Assembly: GCF_035083965.1 (NCBI RefSeq)
Contig: NC_089729.1
Location: 15,488,964 to 15,552,963, forward strand
Direction of reading: 5' to 3'
Source: Branchiostoma lanceolatum
Lineage: Eukaryota; Chordata; Leptocardii; Amphioxiformes; Branchiostomatidae
DNA length: 64,000 bases
Below the pieces are notes generated by a model. That model saw only the letters and a program-made list of their open reading frames with translations. It did no database searches and was not told the DNA's origin. The translations under genes and the position numbers were made by a program. Numbering within the stretch: the first letter of the stretch is position 1; each line of letters opens with the position of its first letter. Positions 7,291 through 25,607 of this stretch are shown here, piece after piece.

Positions 7291-8007
7291 GTTCCTGTCG
7301 TTTGACATTACTGAAGTATAAATTTTCCTAATTAGTTATGCAAATCAAGTTCTAATTTGTATGATTTATGTACCGTTATGTTGGCCTTCATCAAAATTAC
7401 CTACAGCTAAATCATGAACATTTATCCATCCCTTCTTGACTTACCCTGTTTCCAAGTCTGTAACTGAACCGCCCCTGCAGTTCCAAAGACGGCTGCTAGA
7501 GGGCCCAAACGTGTGCCATTTCTTCCTGAGCGCGCGATCTATCTACCGCCTATAGCTTGTCCACTACACGAGATACGAAATACGAAACTTCTAATACAGT
7601 ACCACGGAAAGCCACCAGGGGGCCCCAAAATCTAATAATCTATTCGATAGGACTACGACAAACCACATACCAAATATAATCCATCCATATGCTACTAAAC
7701 TACAAGCACCGTTGCACCGATACGAACGCTACCAAAGCACAGAAAACCATATTGGCGACGGTATGTTACACAATGAGACAAGTTACCGGTCATAGGATAT
7801 ACACACGACATGATCTCGGTAACCAGGATAGACTTTAAATTTCCCGCGAAATCATCGTGACCTTTGCCCTCCAAAGACTGACGGGACACTTCCTGGTGTC
7901 AGCCATTTTGCGCTACGCCAGGTACGCGATGGTTTGTTTTTGCAGTGGAAGGTTCTAGTAGTTTTCTTCCTCCCCTAGCCTAAAATTAACAACATTTAGA
8001 TTTAAAA
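7291..8007 (+). promoter_or_regulatory. STUB1 upstream region
   Basis: No other gene is visible. The 100 bp before the STUB1 start (about 7900-8007) is relatively CpG-rich for the window and contains GCCATTTTGCGCTACG, followed by the leader with ATTTAAAAATG at the start codon. It is assigned as promoter and 5' UTR by position only. Confidence 0.35.
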
Positions 8008-11000
8008 ATGAGTGCTACAGAGCTTAAAGATCAAGGGAACCGATTCTTCAGCGCCAGAAGATATGACGATGCTATAAAATGTTACACGAAGGCGATCGTA
8101 AGTTCAAGGGTCTTTTTATAGATTTGCTTTTAGTTCTTGTATTTACAAACATGTGTTTGGCTTATCCTCATGTTCCTCGAGTTTCTGTATCTCCGGTATC
8201 CAAGTATATGATTCTATAATAGTATTAATAGTTATGTATGTGTGTGTGTGTTCAACGTACATGGCATATTGATGTCTAACGGTACAACACATATGAAATA
8301 TGGCCTGGTGAGCAAAATGATAGATTTACATTAATTTTACGATTTAGTTTGACCGAAAAGGTCAATCCTATATAGCGATGCTAGTAATATGTTGCTAATG
8401 CAAATAAGTCTTATCAGTAAGCAAATAGATGCATGCAATGACAACAGGCATCACTCTTCCTTCAATTAATTGATTGATTGATTGAATCACCAATATTGCA
8501 GTATTTGAAACACCTGCATGTATCACCAACCAGTAGAAATGCTGATGTCTGAGGCAGACTTAAGGATATTAATATTGAGTCGTGTGCAATTTTTAGATTT
8601 CCAACCTGATCAAGAACCAACCAATAGAAATCTACATTTTGTATTTCATTGGAAGGTGGAGCCCAACCTACTCCTCCCACTGCTCTTTACCTCCCCAACC
8701 AAAGTCAGGTACCCATGTTTACAACTGGGTGGAGTGAGGAACGGTGTGCATTTCACAAGGGCACGACATCGGTGACATGACAGGATTTAGACCCAGGACC
8801 TCTGGGATCTTGGCCAAACACACTGTCGTTACGCCACACGACCCCAGTGACTTTCATTTATTGGTTCTAAATGTTTACTCTCATATATTCACCTTGAAGT
8901 TCAGCCAGTAGGTACCCTTTCGAGTAATGAGGCTGTGCCTAGTTTGGTGCTAGTAGTGGACATGGTAGTTTCTTATCCGCTTCCTTCCTTCCTTCCTTCC
9001 TTCCTTCCTTCCTTCCTTCCTTCCTTCCTTCCTTCCTTCCTTCCTTCCTTCCTTCCTTCCTTCCTTCCTTCCTTCCTTCCTTCCTTCCTTCCTTCCTTCC
9101 TTCCTTCTCTTAGTGGGAAAGCTTGTGTTTGTGGAGTCCTTCTACTCTTCCTTCCTTCCTTCCTTCCTTCTTTGACTTAGTAGACCACATAGTACATAAT
9201 ACATAGACCATATATACATAAATATTCATTGACACAACAAAAGTACAGCGACTTTCGTGAGGTCTACTATATTCTGTACATACACAGTCAAATGGTATAT
9301 CTGTTCTTACTAACTGTTCACCATTTCCAATCTAATTAGATCAAGAACCAATCAGTAGCAACCTACTTCACCAACCGAGCGCTGTGCTACCTGAAGCTGC
9401 AGCAGTGGGAGCTGGCTGCACAGGACTGCCGCCGGGCGCTGGAGCTGGACAACAGATCGGTCAAGGGGCACTTCTTCCTGGGACAGTGCCTCGTGGAACA
9501 GGACACACACGATGAAGCCATCAAAAGTTTCCAGAGAGGTTCATAGCCTACATTGTTGCTTTTAAGATTGCAGGGATCACCCTAGAAATATAGAGCAGGA
9601 TGGAGGAAGGGTGCCAAGCACAGGATAATTATAAGTGTTGCGAGGAGGGTGCACGCACACACCTCAAGAGAGCAGTTGTTGCATGGAAATATTGGATGAA
9701 ATACTGTAATTATTGATTTGTTAACTGTAACTTACTTTTAGCTGATTTAACGGTCACTAGTCAACAGCTAAAATTTCATCATTGCTAATATTTGATCACT
9801 AATATTTGAGAAAGTAAGTTTTGTTCCCACCGTTAAAATTAAGTACCGTGACCAACTTCATTTTCCCCAAACCGCTATATTTTCCTGCCGCTATATTAAA
9901 GTGATTAACAGTACCCTAACTTTGAAAATAAACAGTATGAAGCTGGTATTAGAACAGGATGGAGCAGCACCACTGTTCCATTCTTTAGGGAGATTTCTGC
10001 ATTGTATTTGTGTCAAAAAGTAAATGAGTTGCATGTACCAATTCAATAAGTACAATGTAGAACATTTTCTAAAAATATAAGAGTCAGGGCTCAAAATTGA
10101 TTTGTACACCTGTAACCAGCCATTTGCAGAAAGAAAAAACAGTCTACAGTTTTGCAAGCTAGAAGGATGTAACTGGCTCAGAATTATGAAAGACAAGTAA
10201 GCAGAAATAAATATTTTGAGCCATGAGGGTACATGTTAGTAGGTATCGAACAAACAAGAATGGGGGCTATCCCTGCTTGTCAATGATTAGATAATTTCTT
10301 CCTTCTGTTTTGATGTATTCAGCATCTCAACATTATTTCAATTTTTTCAAACCCTGCAGTTTCAATTTCATGTTCATCTACAAAGTTAGGCAGTGTTGAG
10401 TAAAGACACTTTTTGGAAAGGGAAATATTCTACATTCGCTAGCAAATGCTGACATTCCTATGTCTATATATGCCTTCTGAGGATGATGATGACTGACAAA
10501 AATCTGATTGTTATATTTCCGCAGCTCATGAGCTAGCTAAAAGGGAAATATTCTACATTCGCTAGCAAATGTTGATATTCGCCTTCTGATGAGGATGAGA
10601 ATGACTGACAAAAATCTGACTGTTATATTTCCACAGCTCATGAGTTAGCTAAAGAACAGAAGTTGAATTATGGAGATGACATTGCCAGTGCCCTGAGGAT
10701 GGCCAGAAAAAAGCGGTGGAGCCTCCAGGAGGAGAAGAGAATAGAGCAGGAGATCGAGTTACAGTCCTATCTCAACAAACTTCTCATAGCTGCCAAGGAG
10801 AAGTGAGTATTAAGGTATTGTCTAAGGGTGGCTGAAGAATTTTGGGATGTTTTTGAAAAAACCCTTTCTCAAGCTTTATAAACCTTCCTCAACCTTAATT
10901 TTTCTTCAGGTAGTACCTTATAGCAAGGTGATAATTTATGCAAATTAGTATGATGTCATGATAACGTCATCAAGATTTATAAGGCCACGCCCCTTTTTTA

Positions 11001-14000
11001 GAAAAAACGCTCTCCTTGGCTTGTACTTCGATGTTCATGAATATAACTTTGCAGGAATGTACATGATAGTGATACCTAAAGAATGACGTGCGGCAACGCG
11101 GATATTTTGAAATATCGATTTTTGGCGAATTTTTTTTGTTGATAACATTCCTGCAAAGTTATATTGATGAACATCGAAGCACAAGCCAAGGAGAGCGTTT
11201 TTTCTAAAAAAGGGGCGTGGCCTTATAAATCTTGATGATGTAATCAAGAGTAGAACTCCCGTGTAATAAAGAAAGTTAATACCTGGTCCAGAACACCCGT
11301 ATTGAACGTTATCCAGGCCCAGGTATGACAAAGCTCAATATACATCTAATGAGAGGTGAGGTCTATATTAGTGTATCGAATATACCTTTTCTAAATTGTT
11401 ATCCCAAAATGTCAACAAGCTATTTCTAGCAAAATTTGTATGTTGGATTTGAGTGTTTTCAAAGACTGGCAGTATCAGTATGCAGCCCTAATGTACGTTA
11501 TTATTTTGGGACATGTGTAACGCTATATGTAAGTTTGTTGCTCTTGAACTCTGAGTCAGTTTCATCTCACCTGTCTTTAAGTGAGTGGGGAAACAATCTC
11601 TTACAGTTTGCACTTCTGTCTTTTCCAGGGAAGTAGCAGAAGTTATGGAAGAAGGGAGTGACAACGACAAATGTCTCGATGAAATAAAAAGAATAGAAGA
11701 AACGCACGTGAGTTACACCTCGTGTTATACATGCATTTGCCTACAACCAGGAATTTATCCTCTAATGTTATATCCTAACAGTTTTTAATTTGGAGTAGAA
11801 TTAGTTAAAGGCATCCAGAGCATTTTATGAGGCTTGAAACTTGAATTAAAAAAATCGAATTTCTAGCCATTCCTACACATAGTAAGTATGATAAGAAATC
11901 CGCCGCCTATGTGGTAAACAGTGGCATCAAATGTCAATTTCATAAAAAGATTACAGCAACTAGAATATTTCCAGTTTTCAAGCCTCATAAAATGCTCTGG
12001 GTGCCTTTAAGAAACATTATTGTCTGTTCTGAATTACCAAGGACATTATTTTTGGAATTACCTATGTAAAACGGGAGGTATTATGTTGGGTGTGCCTGCC
12101 TGTTTTCTTTTCCATGCTTATTTCCATATGCTAGACATACATGTACATTGCAGGGACACTGACAGGAAGTAAGGTCAAAGGTCCCAGAGAGGTTACAAAA
12201 TAAATCATAATAAAAACGGTTATCTCCTTTCTTGTCTTAAAGACCTCCATGTCCATTTCCTCATGGGAGCCGTTTGGAAAATGCATAGACAGAGTCAGCG
12301 AGAAATTCACATTAATGAATGAAATAGGAATTTTTTATGCTTATTGTTGTCTTTACCTTACAGGATCATTACATGGCTGAACTGAACACATTATTCTCAC
12401 AGGTAGATGAGAGACGAAGGGTAAGTTATGTTCATGCATAATTACATACTGAACTAGTTTGAAGAGACCTTTGTAAAAGATGTCTGTAGCGTTACTATTT
12501 GCACCTTCTTTAATGATTGCTAATTGTACTTGGATATTCACCAATGGTTTCCACTTATGACTTCTCTGTAACCTTTAAATGGTTGTGATATAGATTAAAA
12601 CTAAACAGTTGGTCTCACAGGATGGGCTGGTTTTTAATCATATTATGGTAATAAGGTGATAAAACCTTGTGATTGGTCAGTTCCTGACGAATAAGGAAGC
12701 TAGACCAATAGCACCTCTCCCTGACACATGATGTACAGTTGAACAGATACTCACAACAGAGGGAAGATTAGAACAAACATTTTTTGATTTTCCTTGTTTT
12801 TTTCTCCCAATGTGTGTTTAGAAGCGGGAGGTTCCTGATTATCTGTGTGGTAAAATTAGCTACGAACTGATGAAGGATCCGTGTATAACTCCGAGCGGTA
12901 TCACGTATGATCGAAAAGACTTAGAGGAGCACCTTCAGGTATGTCCTTGCTCGTTGGAAGGTGTTCCATCGGATCCTGTGCAGAAGTTACTCCGTCGTTT
13001 TCCCATCTTAAAGAAAAGTATTTTGAAGAGAAGAACATAAACATGGTCCTTTTGACACCAAATGAAAATTGCGATTCTTTTCTGTCAACTTTTGCTGTCA
13101 AATTTGTGCCTTGTAGGAACTGAAATTATCTTTCAAAACATTGTGAATCATACAGTACTAGTTCCTAACAACTTTTGGTAAAGCCAATCAAAATTTATGT
13201 ACAGCAGTTTTGAAAATTTGTAAAAAAAAAATTGCCAAGCCACATTAAGACTTGTAGATTGTAGAATCTTTTTTAAATTCAGTTCAAACCCAACAAAAAC
13301 ACTTCAAGTAAGACCAGATGACCTTGAAAGAAATTGAGTTCGGAGAATGCACACCTCCATAGTGGGAACGACAGACTGACTTCTGCACGGTCCCTGTGGA
13401 CACTTGGTCGTAACCACGTCTTTTTATGTTTTGTGTATGTAGACGCGAGCCGTCCCCGACTTTCTATGTTGTCAGATTAGCTTTGAACTGATGAGAGATC
13501 CCGTAGTAACGCCCAGTGGTATCACGTACGATCGCAAAGACATCGAGGAACATCTACAGGTACATACTGGTTAAGTACTGTGTGCAAAAAACCTTCAGAT
13601 GTGTACATGGACTCCTACAAAACCTTCTGTTCATTGTCTGAAAAAGTACTAGTGTGAAAATCTTTAGAAATGTACATGGGCTTCTACAAAAACCTTGTTC
13701 TTTGTGTGAAAAAGTGTGAAAAACATTCAGAAATGTACATGGACTTCTACAAAACCGCCTGTTCATTGTGTGAAAAGGTGTGAAAAACCTTCAGAAATGT
13801 ACATGGGCTTCTACAAAACCGTCTGTTCATTGTGTGAAAACCTTTGAAAATTGGGCTCCTACAAAACCTTCTGTTCATTGCGTGAAAAACCTTTAGAAAT
13901 TACATGGGCTTCTACAAAACCTTCTGTCAATTGTGTGAAAACCTTTAGAATGGTACGTTGGCTTCTACAAAAACCTTCTGTCCATGCATTGCGTGAAAAA

Positions 14001-14424
14001 TGTTCAAGTTGATAATAACAACTTAACAAATGAAGTGATACACGTACATCATACAAAAAACTGACAAATCTAAAGAATCTACACAGCAAATTGTTATGAA
14101 ACTGTACATATTTCTCTGGTTGTCAGTTAGTGCATAATACAACATGTAATATGCTCTACACTTGAAACTAAAAACACCAGATTCTTATTAACAGGTATGG
14201 ATGTACCGTTAGTATGATATCTCAAGTGTTGATGTGTTTTGTTTATCGCAAAGGTTTTGTCTCTACCCTCTACACTCATTGTTTCCGTTTTCTCACAGCG
14301 GGTCGGCCATTTTGACCCCGTAACTAGGCAACAGCTGACCAAGGATCAACTGATCCCTAACCTAGCCATGAAGGAGGTCATCGGCCATTTTGTCAAGGAT
14401 AACCAGTGGGTGGACGACTACTAA
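8008..14424 (+). CDS. STUB1: STUB1/CHIP, TPR co-chaperone and U-box E3 ubiquitin ligase
   Basis: Exons: 8008-8097, 9340-9538, 10637-10802, 11629-11707, 12364-12420, then either 12822-12938 or 13443-13559, then 14299-14424. Either choice gives about 277 aa (human CHIP has 303). The N-terminal TPR repeats (about residues 1-120) bind the EEVD tails of Hsp70/Hsp90; TNRALCYLK and [11 protein letters not shown] are recognisable. A charged helical hairpin follows. The C-terminal U-box carries KISYELM or [17 protein letters not shown] and HFDPVTR, and the protein ends in WVDDY (human WVEDY). The family ubiquitinates chaperone-bound clients in the cytosol. Human residues Ile235, His260 and Pro269 are retained in both versions. 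Two homologous U-box exons are the oddity (separate entries). Intron 2 also holds a duplicated splice acceptor, and introns carry a SINE, a fold-back, a TTAA-flanked MITE and a minisatellite. Start chosen because the TPR begins about 5 residues later. Confidence 0.95.
8462..8855 (-). mobile_element. tRNA-derived SINE in STUB1 intron 1
   Basis: On the minus strand the element begins near 8855 with GGGGTCGTGTGGCGTAACG, which resembles a pol III A box (TGGCGTAACGA). About 35 bp on comes a B-box-like GGGTCTAAATCC. A body follows with GGTACCTGACTTTGGTTGGG, and it ends in a (TCAA)n-type tail at about 8464-8486. Head, body and short-repeat tail together fit a tRNA-derived SINE. Its body resembles the piece at 19500-19600. 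The exact ends are uncertain. Confidence 0.65.
8981..9171 (+). repeat. (TTCC)n microsatellite
   Basis: An almost pure run of TTCC from about 8981 to 9107, then a short interruption and a further run at 9150-9171, inside STUB1 intron 1. The Pro-Ser-Phe-Leu frame through it is only the repeat translated. Confidence 0.97.
10419..10655 (+). repeat. STUB1: Tandem duplication spanning a STUB1 splice acceptor
   Basis: Two adjacent copies begin at 10419 and 10541 with GGAAATATTCTACATTCGCT. Each ends with the splice-acceptor region and the first codons of exon 3: TTTCCGCAGCTCATGAGCTA upstream and TTTCCACAGCTCATGAGTTA at the real exon (10637). The upstream copy therefore offers a decoy acceptor about 120 bp early. 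Reading from it meets a stop (TAG) within the duplicated segment, so its use would truncate CHIP. Confidence 0.85.
10963..11241. mobile_element. Fold-back MITE in STUB1 intron 3
   Basis: The left arm reads CATCAAGATTTATAAGGCCA then CGCCCCTTTTTTAGAAAAAA. The right arm is its near-perfect reverse complement, ending in ATAAATCTTGATGATG. The arms are about 110-120 bp, include CTCCTTGGCTTGTACTTCGA, and enclose a short AT-rich centre. There is no coding content. Transcribed RNA could form a long hairpin. Confidence 0.85.
11809..12006. mobile_element. TTAA-flanked MITE in STUB1 intron 4
   Basis: The element starts AGGCATCCAGAGCATTTTAT and ends with the reverse complement of nearly the same text (ATAAAATGCTCTGGGTGCCT). 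TTAA lies directly on both sides. The TIR is about 35 bp and continues as GAGGCTTGAAA. It is the same family as 41820-42185. The TTAA target and AGG start suggest a Kolobok-like or piggyBac-like non-autonomous family; which of these cannot be settled here. Confidence 0.8.
12822..12938 (+). other. STUB1: STUB1 U-box exon version A
   Basis: 117 bp, 39 codons, phase 0 at both ends, acceptor TTTAG and donor GTATGT. It starts [20 protein letters not shown] and ends [10 protein letters not shown], closely matching the human segment. Relative to human numbering it keeps Ile235 and His260 and has Tyr at 237. It is flanked by intact introns and followed 504 bp later by its homologue. Confidence 0.92.
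13443..13559 (+). other. STUB1: STUB1 U-box exon version B (candidate mutually exclusive exon)
   Basis: 117 bp, 39 codons, phase 0 at both ends, acceptor TGTATGTAG and donor GTACAT, no stop codon. It starts [20 protein letters not shown] and ends [10 protein letters not shown], and by hand count is 29/39 identical to version A. It keeps Ile235, Phe237 and His260 of human CHIP. It differs at the Gly-Lys before ISF (Cys-Gln here) and at Cys-Ile after Asp-Pro (Val-Val here). Including both exons would insert 39 residues and repeat half a U-box, so mutually exclusive use is the simplest reading. Confidence 0.85.
13570..13990 (+). repeat. ~50-66-bp minisatellite in the last STUB1 intron
   Basis: About seven imperfect copies carry TTCTACAAAACCTTCTGTTC, CATTGTGTGAAAA and CCTTCAGAAATGTACATGG. 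Anchors fall near 13614, 13681, 13743, 13808, 13856, 13910 and 13963. The array starts only about 10 bp after U-box exon B. Confidence 0.85.
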
Positions 14425-15990
14425 CTTCAACAGCAGGAATCTACTGTACAGGGGGTAGATAACTACTAATTTCAACAGCACAAATCTAGCAGCTTCCAGT
14501 ACCAGTCAAAGATACTTGCCTTGGCAAAGACTACGTAGTAACGGCAATAACACTCTGCATGCCTAAAAGACTGAATTCTGATTAAATTACCGTAACAGAC
14601 AGTTGTATCCTGATCACTGACAGCACATTTGAAACTCTGCTCACCGAAGCCAAATTGTATTGAGTTTTCTGTGGGTGTATATAGGTACTAGTTTCAGTGT
14701 AAGTAAGTTTCAAGTCTAGGAAAATCAATGTTGTGTTTCCAATTACGGTCTTGAAAAAAATTGTGTTGGTTTAGGTAGAAATAATGCCTTTAGAAAAAAG
14801 ATTTTTGCTCAAAGTGATTCAACAACTACAGTTAATGTAAAACTGAAATGTATATCAGGACAATAGTATTTTCAACATGGGATTCTAGTTATACAGGGCA
14901 AAAGGGGGCCTAGGTTTGGTGCATCTCTTAACATCACTTGTTTTCATTGCAACAGAAATGAGAAAAACATGTTGGAAAATTATGCTACAATGTTTTCATT
15001 GCTCAGATGTCAGATTTTATTTCTCTTAATGGTGGTCATCCCCAAAAAATGCTAGGGTTGGCAGGTTTTTGCTAATTTTGTGTTGGTCATCAGGTGACTG
15101 AAAACACAACATTTTTTTCCCTAGGCCTTAGCATTCTAGTAAATACCGAGTGGTTAAAGTTACTAGTCTAAGAGGAATCCATTGTTGATATTGTATAATG
15201 TTGTATATACTACAACTAACTGTATGACCTGACTACTGTGATAGGGTAGACAGTCAAATTAGGTTACGGGGACTTGTTTAGTCGTTCCGTTTCATTTTCT
15301 TTTTAATGTTACAGTTCAAAGGTAAAACTGTTATATTAGCTGTGTTAATTGTTCTTGTTACTGGCAAATATTAAAGGCAGGCGTGTGAGATACAAATGTA
15401 CTTGTAACTTTTGTACAAACTGAAAAAGTCACTTGACATAATGTGTAAAGTCTTGTGAAATTTTTGTTCATTACCGTTACCTCAATGATCTAAAAAGAGC
15501 TAATCTTTACAATGGAGTTGGCAGATATGCGTATAGTAGATCTATCTAGGGAAATGGGTACTTTAAAGAGGCCAGTTTAATATTCAATTCTTTGTTTGTT
15601 GCTTTTGCTTTACTCGTATTCAGTTACTACAAAAGGTTATAGACAGGTTACATTTTGCGAATGTAGTACACATGTTGCATTTGCATTGCCTAATGATAGA
15701 ATGCGAATTGTACAATGTACATCTTTAATGAACGTGAATTGTATGTTAAACCTAGCTTATTACAGTGCCTATGATTTCACAGCTAATTTATGTTGTAGAT
15801 TAGAAGTTTTAGAACAACACTGATTGTACCATGTACAATCAATCAAGATATTCAGATTAAACGTTAAAATGGCGTACTTGTTATGAAGAATATACTAGTA
15901 TTGAGTGAACCTCTGTAAAACATGTCCAAAACCAACAAAATGATTGCATTCCCTGCTTGGAATGGAATAAAGTTAGATTTTCTTAAATGT
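14425..15990 (+). other. STUB1: STUB1 3' UTR, with polyA signal at 15966-15971
   Basis: No further coding exon is seen after the stop at 14424. AATAAA at 15966-15971 in the context TGGAATAAAG is the best polyA signal, giving a 3' UTR of about 1.56 kb if unspliced. A degraded inverted-repeat element lies inside it (14716-15130). The short open frames here are non-coding by appearance. Confidence 0.55.
14716..15130. mobile_element. Fold-back element in the STUB1 3' UTR
   Basis: The left end reads TCTAGGAAAATCAATGTTGT then GTTTCCAATTACGGTC. The right end reads AAAACACAACATTTTTTTCC then CTAGGCCTTAG, an inverted match. The same family, with clearer arms, occurs at 55603-56030 in an intron of the mosaic gene. 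Confidence 0.6.
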
Positions 15991-16859
15991 TTTGTGTGTG
16001 TGTGCCTTTCAGTAAAAAAATCTTTCAGGAGTAGTCTGTGCAGGGACAGTCTTTTGATGCTTGCATATTATCAACCAAAGGCCGGGGCCAGATAGCTTTA
16101 CAGTCATCTACCAAGCTTCAAGGGCTGGTCAGTTGGACGGAGCAAAGTCAGGCTGAAACAATATCTACCCATGGAAAAATCTCGCCCATGGAAAAACTGT
16201 ACTCGCCTGATCTGGCCAGTTAACGGTACATGTACAAAATGTAGGACATGCACTATTAGAACTATCACTTGCCCCCAGGCAATCTGGCCAACCGACTTGT
16301 CAAACCCTGGCTGTGCCATTAGATGCTTGATAATTCCATGAATTTTATCTTTTTACCCGCACTGGTGAAAACGAGTGCTTAGCTTGCATTGGATAGGACA
16401 TTAAATGGAGGAGAGCCACAACTCTAACACGTTAAAGAACCCACCACACTTATTGTTACGAGTAGGTCATGGTTTGAGTGGACAAGCCTTACTACCTGGT
16501 CTCTGGGTTGACATCTTGAAAAGGTAATAGTGGCCTCCGAAAATAATTTCATCAGGTTGGTAGAACATAGGATATAGGAGATTCTTTTTTCACAACCAGG
16601 TAATCTCACCTGCTGACGTTTTGGTGTCTGTCAGACACCTTCTTAAGAGCTTCTGACTGGAGTACTGCTTCTCAACGCTATAAATAGCCGATGTAGGTGG
16701 CGCTTTATCAGCGAGAACGTAATCCAAAACGTCAGCAGGTGAGATTACCTGGTTGTGTAAAAAGAATCTCCAATATCCTGTGATAGTGGCCTGTTACATC
16801 AATCTTCGACAAAAAATAGATTAATAAATAGACACACATCTGTGCAGAACACATCAATC
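15991..16859. other. STUB1-JMJD8 convergent spacer with a fold-back
   Basis: No gene is seen. A fold-back spans about 16560-16790: GGTAATCTCACCTGCTGACG and TTTTGG on the left mirror CCAAAACGTCAGCAGGTGAG and ATTACC on the right, with outer arms GATATAGGAGATTCTTTTT / AAAAGAATCTCCAATATCC. The stretch 16330-16450 has CCCGCACTGGTGAAAACG and CACGTTAAAGAACCC, which resemble a SINE body but cannot be assigned. Confidence 0.6.
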
Positions 16860-16889: not shown

Positions 16890-19800
16890 TTATAGCCATG
16901 GTGCCATAGCTAGGAATGTTGAGATAAAAACAGAGGTGTCGATATTCAGTGTGCCATGCCACCAGCGATCTGGGAAATAGATGATCTGAAAGACATAGAT
17001 TAAGAATAATGTTAGAATGCAAATATCGGCCGATCCCTAAAAATTGCATGAGAACAAGTTGTACATCTAAGTACCGAAAATGTTGTTAAGGGCGCACAAT
17101 TTCATAGAACGATTTTCGTCCTATGACACTGAGGCTTTAGCAGAGAAAGTAGTCAAAGTATAGCTAATATAGTAATAACCTCCCCAGGACCGATGGTGCA
17201 CTCATAAGGCTTTTCTGACTCCTCTAGCTGTGGATACTTCTCCATTAACCATTGTAGGGTGGTACGGTTAGGGTTAAATACTGGCTGTTGGTCGGGTGGA
17301 TACAGGAACCATCTCTGGAGAGGAAAAAGCATAAGACCAAATTAGGAACAGATTGAAAATTATGTTCACAACTTCTTGAGTTTTACTGTTCAAAGAGACA
17401 AACAAACACACACAAAAAATAACCTTCTTGGCAAAGGTGACACAAGAACTGCTTTTAAGAAAAGCTGGCATCGCAACCATTGGATAATGGGATGACTCAA
17501 TCAGGACTATCTGGCCAATCAGAACTATCCGGCTAATGTTTGGTAGGCCTATATATATCCCTCACTAACGCATTATGGGTGCCCCATATTTGGCACCTCA
17601 ACAGGATGCAAAACATAACTTTTATTTGTCTTCTAGATCTGTATTTTGTATATAATTATAAGTGACTGCTGCACCACAGACTTACTAAGCTTAGGATGAT
17701 AACAATAGCTCTCAGATTTAGAACACCTGACACTTTTTTCTTATATTTAGCACACTTAACACGTGAGCTTAACCTTCTCCCTGCTACCTAACTCTGTCAC
17801 TAATAGAGAATGGGGTGCCAAACGGCTACTTCAGCATGCTAAAGGTTAATTCCTTACCTTTCTACCATAGATGACCTCACCAAAGCCTGGCCCATGGAAA
17901 TGGAAGGGTACTCCTGTACCTGCACCTGAAAACAAGAATATACACCATTATATATGACTAACATTTTCCTTGACTCTCCATGCTTTTTTCATGTTTAAAA
18001 TGAGAATTTGATGAATCCAAGATCATTGAATGAAATTTATGGTAAAAATTACAAGTTTTAGCAAAACTGCAGAAGTTATATTCAGACGTACATACTTAAA
18101 ATCTCATGTGAGCTTTAGTAATGATAGATTCTTAGTCTTACCCGTTAACAAGCTGACAGGGAAAGTGTATGAAGAAAGAAGGTATAGCGTCTGAAGGAGA
18201 ACACACACACAGATAGAGAGGACAGTAAAATAAGGTGACAGTTATAGGCACTCAAATGAAAATGAGAGAGAAGAACAAACATTACTAAAAACAATGTATT
18301 TCATACATACATGCATATGTGGTATGGAGCGAAATATAATCACATGCACTTCTATGAAAGGGAATTATTGACCAAACTGCATTGTATTTTCAAAACAGTC
18401 AATACTACAAAGCACTGCAAAAACCTAGAATCTTATTGCTGGAACAAACATAGACAAACATTGTTGTTCACTATTGGCTTTGCCAAGCTCTTGCTGCCAT
18501 AATTATGCAAGAGCTTGCCAATATTGATTCATATCAACCTACCTGCTAGTCCAAAGCTGAGCGCACCTGTGTGCCCAGGTAGATAGTAGGGAGGCTGTAT
18601 GTACTGGTCTAGTAATGGTTCCCACTCCGTGTAGTTTTGGTCTCCAAACAAATACAACGTTTCTGACAAGAAAGGCAATATGAAAAATTCAATGTCTTGT
18701 ACATGAAAATAAGACGTATCTAAAGATTGATTCATGTACAGTAAGTACCAAAAATGTATAATATCAAAATATCAATATAGTGTGGACTGCATAACCTCTC
18801 AAAAGGATTTTCTACAGATTGAAATCTTAAAGGTACATGTACATGTATTTACTAGTAAGGGGATTCATATTATATCAAATATTGAAATAGTGTGGACTCC
18901 ATAACCAGTCATGCACTCTCAAAAGGATTTTCTACCAATACTGGTTTACTGGCTCCACCTAGCAGGTTCCTTGTAACCTGCAGATGCCATAATGTCAATC
19001 CCACTACAACTAGTACAAGAACAGTTACAGAAGGCAACGACCGGGTGGGAAATTTGCTGCCATGAAGAAATTTACAGTCTCCAAGTGCTGAGTGGTTTGT
19101 ATGATATTATTGTACCATTGCCGAGTGTGTTGGCATCCTGAGGCCGCAAAATCTCCTCCACATAATGCTGGAAACTGACTGGCACTGGGGAAACACATAG
19201 AAAAGTAAGTGTCACTCAGTCATTTTCGCTGTTTTATTACCTTAATTTGATACCTTCTTAAAAAAAGCCACAAATATAAAGAATTATCTAATTGTCACCT
19301 TTTGTGTAGGAATAAGTGTTTGCAGAGCTCAGAACGACTTCCTTGCTTCCATAGTCTTCCACTAGAGATGACTTGGAACACAGCTTTCTGAAATTCTTTT
19401 AAAAAAAATGTTAGAATACATGTTCATATCAAATGAGAAAGTAGCAAAACAAATGTAGCCTTTTTTTGCGGCCGTAGGGGCAGTGGGCTGTTAAGCCACT
19501 GTGTCCAGGGTGTGATATTGGAAGGCAGAGCCCATCCTTCTCCTTCCTTTTACCTCCTAACCAAAGCCAGGTGCCCAATAGGAGATAATCTAGGAGAAAA
19601 ATTCTAATCTCTCCCAAAATTAAAACTGACTGTTTTTATCTTGAATATATTAGGTACTTACAGAGTTGTCTGTCACACTCCTGAATATAACAGGTGCTTT
19701 TTCTGCATATCTGAAAGTAGGAAATGTAATAATGGTATTGGTAATGGCAATTATATGCTTTAAAAGATCTAGGAAGCCTATTCATCTATAGATTGGTCAT

Positions 19801-23149: not shown

Positions 23150-25607
23150 ACAGAAGGATATCGGGAAGGTAAAAATAACGGCGAGGATAAACGCTCGCTT
23201 TCCAACAGCTTTTCTCTACCTAAACATAAGAATGGATTATGTAGACTGAGCCTATATGTAACGGAAGGATATCGGAAAGGTAGAAATAACTGCGAGGGAA
23301 AACGTCAGCTTTCCGACAGCTTTTCTCTACCTAAACATAAAAGGGGGTTACGCAAACCGAGCCTATATGTAACGGAAGAATATCGGAAAGGTAGAAATAA
23401 CTGCGAGGGAAAACGCCCGCTTTCCGACAGCATTTCTCTACCTAAACATAAAAGGGGGGAGGTCTCCCCCCTTCTATGTAAACCGAACCTATATGTAACG
23501 GAATGATATCGGAAAGGTAGAAATAACTGCGAGGAAAACGCCCGCTTTCCGACAGCTTTTCTCTACCTCAACATAAAAGGGGGGAAGTCTCCCCCCTTCT
23601 ATGTAAACCGAACCTATAGGTAAAGGAAGAATATCGGAAAGGTCGAAATAACTGCGAGGGAAAACGGTCGCTTTCTGGCAGCTTTTCTCTACCTAAACAT
23701 AAGAGGGGGGAGGTCCCCCCCCTTATGTAAACCAAGCCTAAAGGTAACGGAATGATATCGGAAAGGTAGAAATTACTACGAGGATAAACGCCCGCTTTCC
23801 GTCAGCTTTTCTCTACCTAAACACAAAAGGGGGGAGGTCTCCCCCCTTCTATGTAAACCGAACCTATATGTAACGGAATGATATCGGAAAGGTAGAAATA
23901 ACTGCGACGGAAAACGCCCGCTTTCCAACAGCTTTACTCTACCTTAACATAAAAGGGGGGAGGTCTCCCCCCTTCTATGTAAACCGAACCTATATGTAAC
24001 GGAAGGATATCGGAAAGGTCGAAATAACTGCGAGGAAAACGCCCGCTTTCCGACAGCTTTTCTCTACCTAAATATAAAAGGGGGGAGGTCTCCCTCCTTC
24101 TATGCAAACTGAACCTATATGTAACGGAAGGATTTTGGAAAGGTACAAATAACTGCAAGGGAAAACGCCCGCTTTCCGACAGCCTTACTCTACCTTAACA
24201 TAAAAGGGGGGAGGTCTCCCCCCTTCTATGTAAACCGAACCTATATGTAACGGAAGGATATCGGAAAGGTAGAAATAACTGCGAGGGTAAACACCCGCTT
24301 TCCGACAGCTTTACTCTACCTAAACATAAAAGGGGGGAGGTCTCCCCCCTTCTATGTAAACCGAACCTATAGGGCGTATTCAGTCACGTGACCCTCCCCC
24401 TAGCAACGAGCACTGGCGGCCATGTTGGTGCTCACTTGATAGTGGAGTCCTATGGAACTCTCTGTATAAATGGCAGATGTTTTCTACGCCATTCACAATT
24501 TCCCTTCAAAACGTTTTGTCTCATAAATCATGGTGTTTTGCCTCGTGGTCAGATGTTGGATTGGGACTGATAAAGCACACACCGGTCGGGTAACAGTAAG
24601 ATTGGTTTTGCGTTTCTCGTGTAGGACGTGTACGTGCGGGAACATACGATCGCGAAGGGACTAACGACTGAAACAAAAGTGGATTTCTGACATACGAACA
24701 ACGGATCTAAATAGTTGAAATTTGAGAATCAACGTGTGTGTATGGAAACCTTTTGTATCTGGTCGAAAAGCAAGTTACAGGCCCGTTGTGTAACACAGTC
24801 GCGGCACCGTGTAGTCAGTGTTCGTTGCTTGAGATACGTTCATTCATAAACTGGGGGTCTTTCAACGTCGAACTTTCCCGATCATAACGTACTCCCTGTC
24901 AGCAAAATTTCTCACGACACTCAAGACACTGTACTACGTGACTGCAGGCCTTGGAACACTTGTATGCTCTGAACTGATTTTATGCGTACTCTGTAAACAG
25001 TTTAGCGGCCATGTTTGTAGGCTGCTGGGGAACCTCGCTCGCCGATAATGGGTCATTTCCAGTAGGTGAAATTGGACTATTGTAGCGAAAAGATGTGAGG
25101 CTGGAGACTCTTTGCATATAATAAAACAGCGATCAGATGACTTCGCACTCCTTGGAAATTTAGAGACCGTCGGACACCGACCAACTTCGCTGCAGGGTGA
25201 GCACCAACATGGCCGCCCACGGAGGGCAGGGGTGATGACGTCACGTGAATACGCCCTATATGTAACGGAATGATATCGGAAAGGTAGAAATAACTGCGAG
25301 GAAAACGCCCGCTTTCCGACAGCTTTACTCTACCTAAACATAAAAGGGGGGAGGTCTCCCCCCTTCTATGTAAACCGAACCTATATGTAACGGAATGATA
25401 TCGGAAAGGTAGAAATAACTGCGAGGGAAAACGTCCGGTTTCCGACAGCTTTTCTCTACCTTAACATAAAAGGGGGGAGGTCTCCCCCCTTCTATGTAAA
25501 CCGAACCTATATGTAACGGAAGGATATCGGAAAGGTAGAAATAACTGCGAGGGAAAACGTCCGCTTTTCGACAGCTTTTCTCTACCTAAACATAAAAGGG
25601 GGAAATA
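23150..25607 (+). repeat. ~124-bp satellite array with a GC-rich palindrome in most units
   Basis: About 13 units share TAACGGAATGATATCGGAAA, GGTAGAAATAACTGCGAGG, CGCCCGCTTTCCGACAGC, TTTTCTCTACCTAAACATAA and AAACCGAACCTATATG. Most also carry GGGGGGAGGTCTCCCCCC, an 18-bp near-palindrome able to form a hairpin. Palindrome positions include about 23455, 23580, 23707, 23830, 23954, 24080, 24209, 24332, 25349 and 25472, so the period is about 123-126 bp. The first two or three units lack the full palindrome. The array is interrupted by the insertion at 24372-25256. Confidence 0.92.
24372..25256. mobile_element. 885-bp non-autonomous TIR element inserted in the satellite
   Basis: The left end is GGGCGTATTCAGTCACGTGA and the right end is TCACGTGAATACGCCC. 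Inverted similarity resumes about 45 bp inside with GCGGCCATGTTGGTGCTCAC, giving arms of roughly 65 bp. TATA flanks both ends (24368-24371 and 25257-25260). Removing the element plus one TATA restores exactly the satellite text ACCTATATGTAACGG, so TATA is the target duplication. No transposase frame is present. The superfamily is not assigned. Confidence 0.88.

Follow-up and report, generated by a model that had tools for sequence, protein, structure and literature searches.

Two constrained versions of a U-box exon in a lancelet STUB1/CHIP gene, probably spliced one at a time

The STUB1/CHIP gene of the lancelet Branchiostoma lanceolatum contains a duplicated exon, the two copies of which, here called A and B, encode two versions of the first half of the U-box. 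The duplication, in a ligase central to protein quality control, is real and old and has been kept by selection. Our preferred reading, to which we give a probability of about two in three, is that an old tandem duplication of the exon would have left two copies that selection has retained, with most likely only one of them entering any given transcript. The outcome would be two full-length CHIP ligases differing at 10 positions of the U-box.

The CHIP gene and its surroundings

The window, the whole stretch of 64,000 nucleotides analysed here, encodes CHIP on its + strand at 8008-14424 in eight coding exons, as judged from its translation. Alignment of the translation to CHIP structures assigns the ATG and the start of the TPR region to coding exon 1 (8008..8097), further TPR sequence to exon 2 (9340..9538), the TPR end and part of the helical hairpin to exon 3 (10637..10802), more of the hairpin to exon 4 (11629..11707), its end to exon 5 (12364..12420), and the second half of the U-box with the stop codon to the last coding exon (14299..14424). 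Between the latter two lie exon A (12822..12938) and exon B (13443..13559), both on the + strand. The preliminary description had proposed that either exon singly completes a normal CHIP, and this was borne out, the path from exon 5 through A or through B to the last exon giving 277 residues in each case. Inclusion of both also remains in frame (316 aa), as does skipping of both (238 aa), and the reading frame by itself thus enforces no choice.

The identity of the gene as a CHIP/STUB1 orthologue rests on the TPR region, the CHIP helical domain, the C-terminal U-box and an end-to-end match to known CHIP. In Pfam, the isoforms with A and with B both match PF04564 (U-box), PF18391 (CHIP helical) and TPR families, the U-box scoring 109.0 bits with A and 112.4 with B. 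Residues 2-277 of the B isoform match CHIP chains in the PDB (E about 1e-113), and even the single exons find solved CHIP structures (E 2e-17 for B, 1.8e-21 for A). The order of TPR, helical hairpin and U-box is the same as in STUB1/CHIP of other animals. We also observed a weak resemblance of exon B, apparently via its CC...DPVVTP pattern, to the NOSIP zinc-finger family PF15906, which the A U-box does not match at all; the B U-box by itself scores 23.8 bits, and the B. floridae protein P0001 described below 31.6 bits (cut-off 30).

Tail to tail with CHIP, on the - strand at about 16890-17930, lies a JmjC/cupin-like gene, three joined exons of which match Cupin_8 (E 4e-11) and JmjC_2 (E 1e-6), one exon alone having no Pfam match. 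The gene appears JMJD8-like in sequence; human STUB1 and JMJD8 are presumably neighbours, and the pairing of CHIP with a JMJD8-like gene may be old.

Several partial copies and repeats were noticed in the window. Intron 2 contains a second copy of the start of exon 3 and of its acceptor (10417-10541 and 10540-10653, 92-95% identical); read by eye, its frame closes after 13 codons, and it appears to be a partial exon copy of recent origin that is already dead. In intron 1, 28 nt at 8608-8635 resemble the start of exon 2 (86% to 9339-9366); the N terminus of the B. floridae protein P0002 repeats the exon-2 start, and this end of the gene may be duplicated there too. The 3' UTR holds a tandem repeat of the region around the stop codon (14404-14443 and 14449-14488, 83%). 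Foldbacks occur in intron 3 (10956-11060/11145-11249, arms 95% complementary) and in intron 4 (11805-11839/11976-12010, 97%), the latter with a seeming close relative at 41816-41850/42155-42189. The intron after exon B has a minisatellite at 13583-13985, its units spaced about 48-69 bp apart, and a cluster of palindrome-like repeats, about one every 125 bp (ACATAAAAGGGGGGAGGTCTCCCCCCTTCTATGT and variants), occupies 23446-24360.

Divergence and constraint of the two exons

All of the basic observations on the pair were reproduced: two exons of 117 bp, 504 bp apart, both in phase 0, with open frames and AG/GT borders, and with 29 of 39 residues identical. At the nucleotide level they differ at 31 of 117 positions, distributed over codon positions 1, 2 and 3 as 5, 6 and 20. 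Of the codons that differ, 14 still specify the same residue and 10 do not, and 9 of the 12 shared fourfold sites have changed. The dN is about 0.15, and the dS lies above 1 (3.2 by NG86, 1.2 by LWL85) and is effectively saturated. When the same substitutions were placed at random, 19.2 +/- 2.0 residue changes were expected against the 10 observed (P 5e-5), and 66% of the copies acquired a stop. In simulated neutral decay of exon A to the same distance, no copy out of 20,000 combined an open frame with 29/39 identity or better. Silent sites have thus diverged and the protein has been kept in both exons. The direct repeat around the pair extends over 131 nt (75%), from 11 nt before the exon to 3 nt after it; the likeness ends near the exon borders, so that the flanking introns have diverged, as expected for an old event. 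The substitution pattern shows that purifying selection has preserved the coding role of both copies, and exon B, read from the comparison of the copies, is a diverged yet constrained coding copy and no relic.

The closest protein match, P0001, is annotated as 'E3 ubiquitin-protein ligase CHIP-like isoform X1 [Branchiostoma floridae]' (316 aa; best of the 120 matches listed of 1149). It corresponds to the product with both exons and differs from the AB translation of the window at 5 of 316 residues, three of them upstream of the pair, one in A, none in B and one in the last exon. Exon A is therefore identical to its B. floridae counterpart at 38/39 residues and exon B at 39/39. A second B. floridae protein, P0002, contains exon A without B and is identical over its final 247 residues to P0001 with B removed; the window differs from both proteins at the same five places. 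The preliminary description had named a broken exon B in sister species as evidence against its proposal, and B is found intact in this one.

It is very improbable, in our view, that exon B is an unused or noisily spliced leftover of the duplication. Such a reading could draw on its donor, which scores 5.8 against 9.8 for that of A (rough values from a consensus table), on the failure to see a B-only product among the matches listed, and on the other partial exon copies in the gene, which appear dead (8608-8635; 10478-10541). These copies, however, serve as an example of what unconstrained copies look like, whereas B has diverged at third positions with its protein kept, to a degree equalled in 0 of 20,000 neutral decays, and is identical in B. 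floridae at every residue.

The age of the duplication could not be read from a tree of the 39-residue segments, which lacked resolution (63 rows: 3 from lancelets and 60 of 155 distinct others); a clade of lancelet A and B was not rejected (p 0.553), and the event is thus undatable by this means. Retention of both copies stands out against the general conservation of the U-box first half, in which 21 of 39 positions hold one residue in at least 97% of 316 segments (matches listed). These segments come from 319 proteins, that is, the matches listed in three overlapping protein searches (120 each of 1149, 581 and 356), 316 of which gave an ungapped segment of 39 residues and three of which were dropped. 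In other animals CHIP has a single such segment, two being present only in lancelet P0001 among these proteins.

Residue differences and the E2 face

Human numbering was anchored at H260, whereupon D229 and I235 fall where PMC2396629 places them. On this scale exon A reads G233, K234, Y237, C244, I245 and L257, and exon B A226, C233, Q234, F237, V244, V245 and I257. The preliminary description had set Gly-Lys against Cys-Gln before ISF/ISY, and we correct the strings: A reads GK-ISY and B reads CQ-ISF.

We counted residues in 158 distinct segments from the matches listed, with P0001 and P0002 set aside. The usual states are G233 (153 segments), K234 (149), F237 (156) and I257 (152). Exon A keeps G233 and K234 and has Y237, which occurs in 0/158 of the listed segments, and L257 (2/158). 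Exon B keeps F237 and I257 and has C233 (4/158, one of these, P0285, apparently misaligned), Q234 (2/158) and A226 (0/158). Of the near-invariant positions, 233 and 234 are therefore altered in B only, and 237 and 257 in A only. This reciprocal divergence is the most interesting result at the protein level: judged from these counts, neither exon is simply ancestral, each having given up different near-invariant residues, a pattern that would be expected if A and B share work.

The preliminary description had gone further and envisaged two ligases with different E2-contact residues, a switchable E2-binding half. In PMC2396629, five residues of this half are at the E2 interface or hold it in place, namely D229, I235, F237, E259 and H260, with D229 forming a salt bridge to Ubc13 and E259 one to R263. 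D229, I235, E259 and H260 are the same in both exons, and only position 237 differs, with exon A (Tyr) the deviant one and exon B (Phe) the usual one. The contrast of Cys-Ile with Val-Val, also proposed as a change of the E2 face, does not hold up as such, since neither valine of B is out of the ordinary among other animals: most of the listed segments have V244 (146/158, against 11/158 with the C244 of A), and V245 is present in 17/158. The supposed switch thus reduces to a possibly tuned E2-binding loop.

Within that loop, an altered E2 preference is possible on the basis of the unusual G233C and K234Q of exon B, which adjoin I235; K234Q would take away a positive charge beside I235, near the basic helix of the E2. 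The Tyr237 of exon A could retain stacking on the E2 arginine. According to the same paper (PMC2396629), F237A works with Ubc13-Uev1a and not with UbcH5, an E2-selective activity that makes 237 a sensible site for tuning. The pair would most likely act mainly by adjusting the E2-binding loop, through G233C and K234Q in B and through F237Y in A, with no swap of E2 contacts.

Splicing of the pair and predicted folds of the A-B intron

Equal length, equal phase and homology are published predictors of mutually exclusive exons (PMC3228551), and A and B conform to them, with 117 bp each, phase 0, GT-AG borders and 29/39 identical residues. In the same source, only 90 of 16,180 fly X-chromosome exons with a constitutive or differentially included annotation share these features. 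Since, in addition, each exon completes the same half of one domain, splicing of one at a time is what we infer, and mutual exclusion of A and B appears likely from the sequence. Exon A, with the higher-scoring donor, would probably be the default and B a regulated choice.

P0001, which joins A to B in frame, is the plainest result against exclusion, though it is a predicted model. In PMC5740500, an RNA-seq rule rejects an exclusive pair when reads join the two exons in frame. The preliminary description had held that both exons together would not complete a normal CHIP; this remains structurally sensible, but P0001 is exactly such a product, and the strict form of mutual exclusion conflicts with it. 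Both exons being multiples of 3, double inclusion would not be eliminated by a frameshift either.

One may therefore ask whether A and B are normally included together, giving a 316-residue CHIP in which an extra half U-box follows the helical hairpin and precedes a complete U-box of the B type. B, which adjoins the last exon, would then supply the working domain, and the A half would serve as spacer or as a regulatory insert. We regard this as the less probable course, with a real but minor share of the likelihood. Besides P0001 itself, five residues away from the AB translation of the window, it is consistent with the open frame and GT-AG borders of both exons and with the best full U-box that Pfam finds in P0001, at 240-312, which consists of B and the last exon. 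On the other hand, P0001 is one predicted model, no other of the 319 proteins (matches listed) has two half-U-box segments, half a U-box would be unlikely to fold alone, and D229, I235, E259 and H260 need not have persisted in A were it only a spacer. The 'X1' in the name of P0001 implies further isoforms.

The converse evidence, a B-only product, was sought as well. None was found among the 319 proteins (matches listed, from a set clustered at 90% identity in which a B-only lancelet protein, 10/277 differences from the A-only one, could hide in a cluster or rank below the matches listed), and no short transcript-like fragment with a B-only junction came from a lancelet, the top identity being 83% (120 matches listed of 356). 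AlphaFold2 scored the U-box region of P0001 low, 38-58 in 12 ten-residue blocks from 201 with one at 71; its input was biased, as MAFFT distributes the other rows across the A and B halves. The U-box of the A-only control P0002, run with the same 48 other rows, came out equally poor (39-62), which makes AlphaFold2 uninformative on the AB fold.

If splicing of one exon at a time is nevertheless preferred, a means of exclusion has to be considered. A donor less than 50 bp from a branch point can cause steric interference (PMC5740500). The branch-point-like TCGTAAC at 13408..13414 (+ strand; pattern match only), with its A at 13413, lies 29 nt before the B acceptor and about 474 nt from the A donor along the linear sequence, well beyond about 50 nt, and at 504 nt the linear A-B intron is so long that steric exclusion would depend on a stem. 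A long stem is predicted within it, on the + strand, with a left arm at 12959..13006 that starts 20 nt past the A donor and a right arm at 13362..13405 that ends 37 nt before the B acceptor. It comprises 39 pairs (35 Watson-Crick and 4 G-U; -53 kcal/mol with a short artificial loop joining the arms), and its best ungapped piece scores 49, compared with 26.3 +/- 2.9 in dinucleotide shuffles (0/300 as high). If formed, it would leave the A donor 20 nt from the stem base with the branch-point-like A 8 nt beyond, reducing their distance to about 28 nt.

A second predicted structure, a hairpin at the A donor (12926..12967, + strand), pairs the end of exon A (12926-12936) with the intron (12957-12967) through 10 Watson-Crick and 1 G-U pairs and holds the GT at 12939 in its loop. 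Its energy of -20.3 kcal/mol in 56 nt (z -3.09; 1/200 shuffles as good) compares with -6.8 to -11.5 for the local folds of six other donors, and among the 519 GT sites of 8000-16000 the A donor ranks third; of the two sites ahead of it, one (12943) belongs to this same hairpin. The mean pair probability of the long stem in 12700-14424 is 0.66 (weakest pair 0.03), lowered partly because 12957-12967 also pairs with 12926-12936. Two folding states lie within 3 kcal/mol of each other, at -179.6 with the hairpin and -176.8 with the full stem. It is thus tempting to imagine that in one state the hairpin would hide exon A, and that its opening would allow the long stem to form, placing the A donor and the B branch-point-like site about 28 nt apart, too close for A and B to be joined, so that A would join the last exon. 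A splicing role for the stem and the hairpin, which were folded in silico from one sequence, is a conjecture.

For these folds, and not for the exon pair, there is a plainer account, towards which we lean slightly, namely that the stem is a decayed foldback element with terminal inverted repeats and no part in splicing. When the window is cut into 252 overlapping stretches of 504 nt, 34 of them contain foldbacks as strong, and the window holds 48 inverted repeats, this stem included, with a score of at least 49 and a span up to 600 nt (many of them from the one array at 23446-24360). Intron 3 likewise has arms that are 95% complementary (10956-11060/11145-11249), and the fold of the A-B intron as a whole is ordinary (z -1.11; 14/100 shuffles as good). 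However, the intron sequence has no other copy in the window beyond a 25-nt match (E 0.09), the arms come within 20 and 37 nt of two splice sites, and the outer part of the stem has a second partner near the end of exon A, with which it makes a hairpin far stabler than the folds of the six other donors. Docking and selector pairing between introns was tried and rejected, the best cross-intron complementarities scoring 32 and below; matches of the intron minisatellite to the A and last acceptors, at 28-32, were taken as background.

Several features link the lancelet pair to known systems (our comparisons draw on PMC9741552, PMC9013439 and PMC11802352). Dscam1, MHC, 14-3-3zeta, sodium channels and PGM1 provide examples of adjacent, homologous exons that match in length and phase, and exons 4a/4b of OGDH (PMC7969005) are likewise tandem duplicates used in a mutually exclusive way. 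As in these exclusive-exon systems, A and B encode the same part of one domain, with silent sites diverged and the protein kept; unlike them, A and B are known from sequence alone, and one annotated product joins both. Control of exclusive splicing by RNA structure or by branch-point proximity is also known (PMC11802352, PMC5740500); the A-B intron resembles such systems in that its stem would place the A donor about 28 nt from a branch-point-like site of exon B and in that one segment has two competing partners. In contrast to those systems, the A-B stem is an in silico fold of a single sequence, and the intron has no docking/selector array. A/B probably joins the known class of tandem-duplicated, mutually exclusive exons. 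Among the papers listed from the open-licence literature, which leaves most subscription papers outside, none had a title or abstract that dealt with duplication of a CHIP exon, with a lancelet STUB1 exon pair or with exclusive exons in the E2-binding domain of a U-box or RING protein.

The most far-reaching version of the proposal combines two CHIP ligases, an intronic two-state RNA switch as their source and a shifted balance between UbcH5-type and Ubc13-type E2s brought about by C233/Q234/F237 (B) versus G233/K234/Y237 (A). Taken as a whole it is a long shot; if it were true, splicing would set the kind of ubiquitin chain placed on chaperone clients. A second version kept by selection reveals, in any case, which near-invariant residues can change in a working ligase, and how. 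A and B offer a natural pair for probing the effect of the loop L1 residues on E2 choice, and two versions spliced one at a time would give the lancelet two flavours of a normally near-invariant enzyme.
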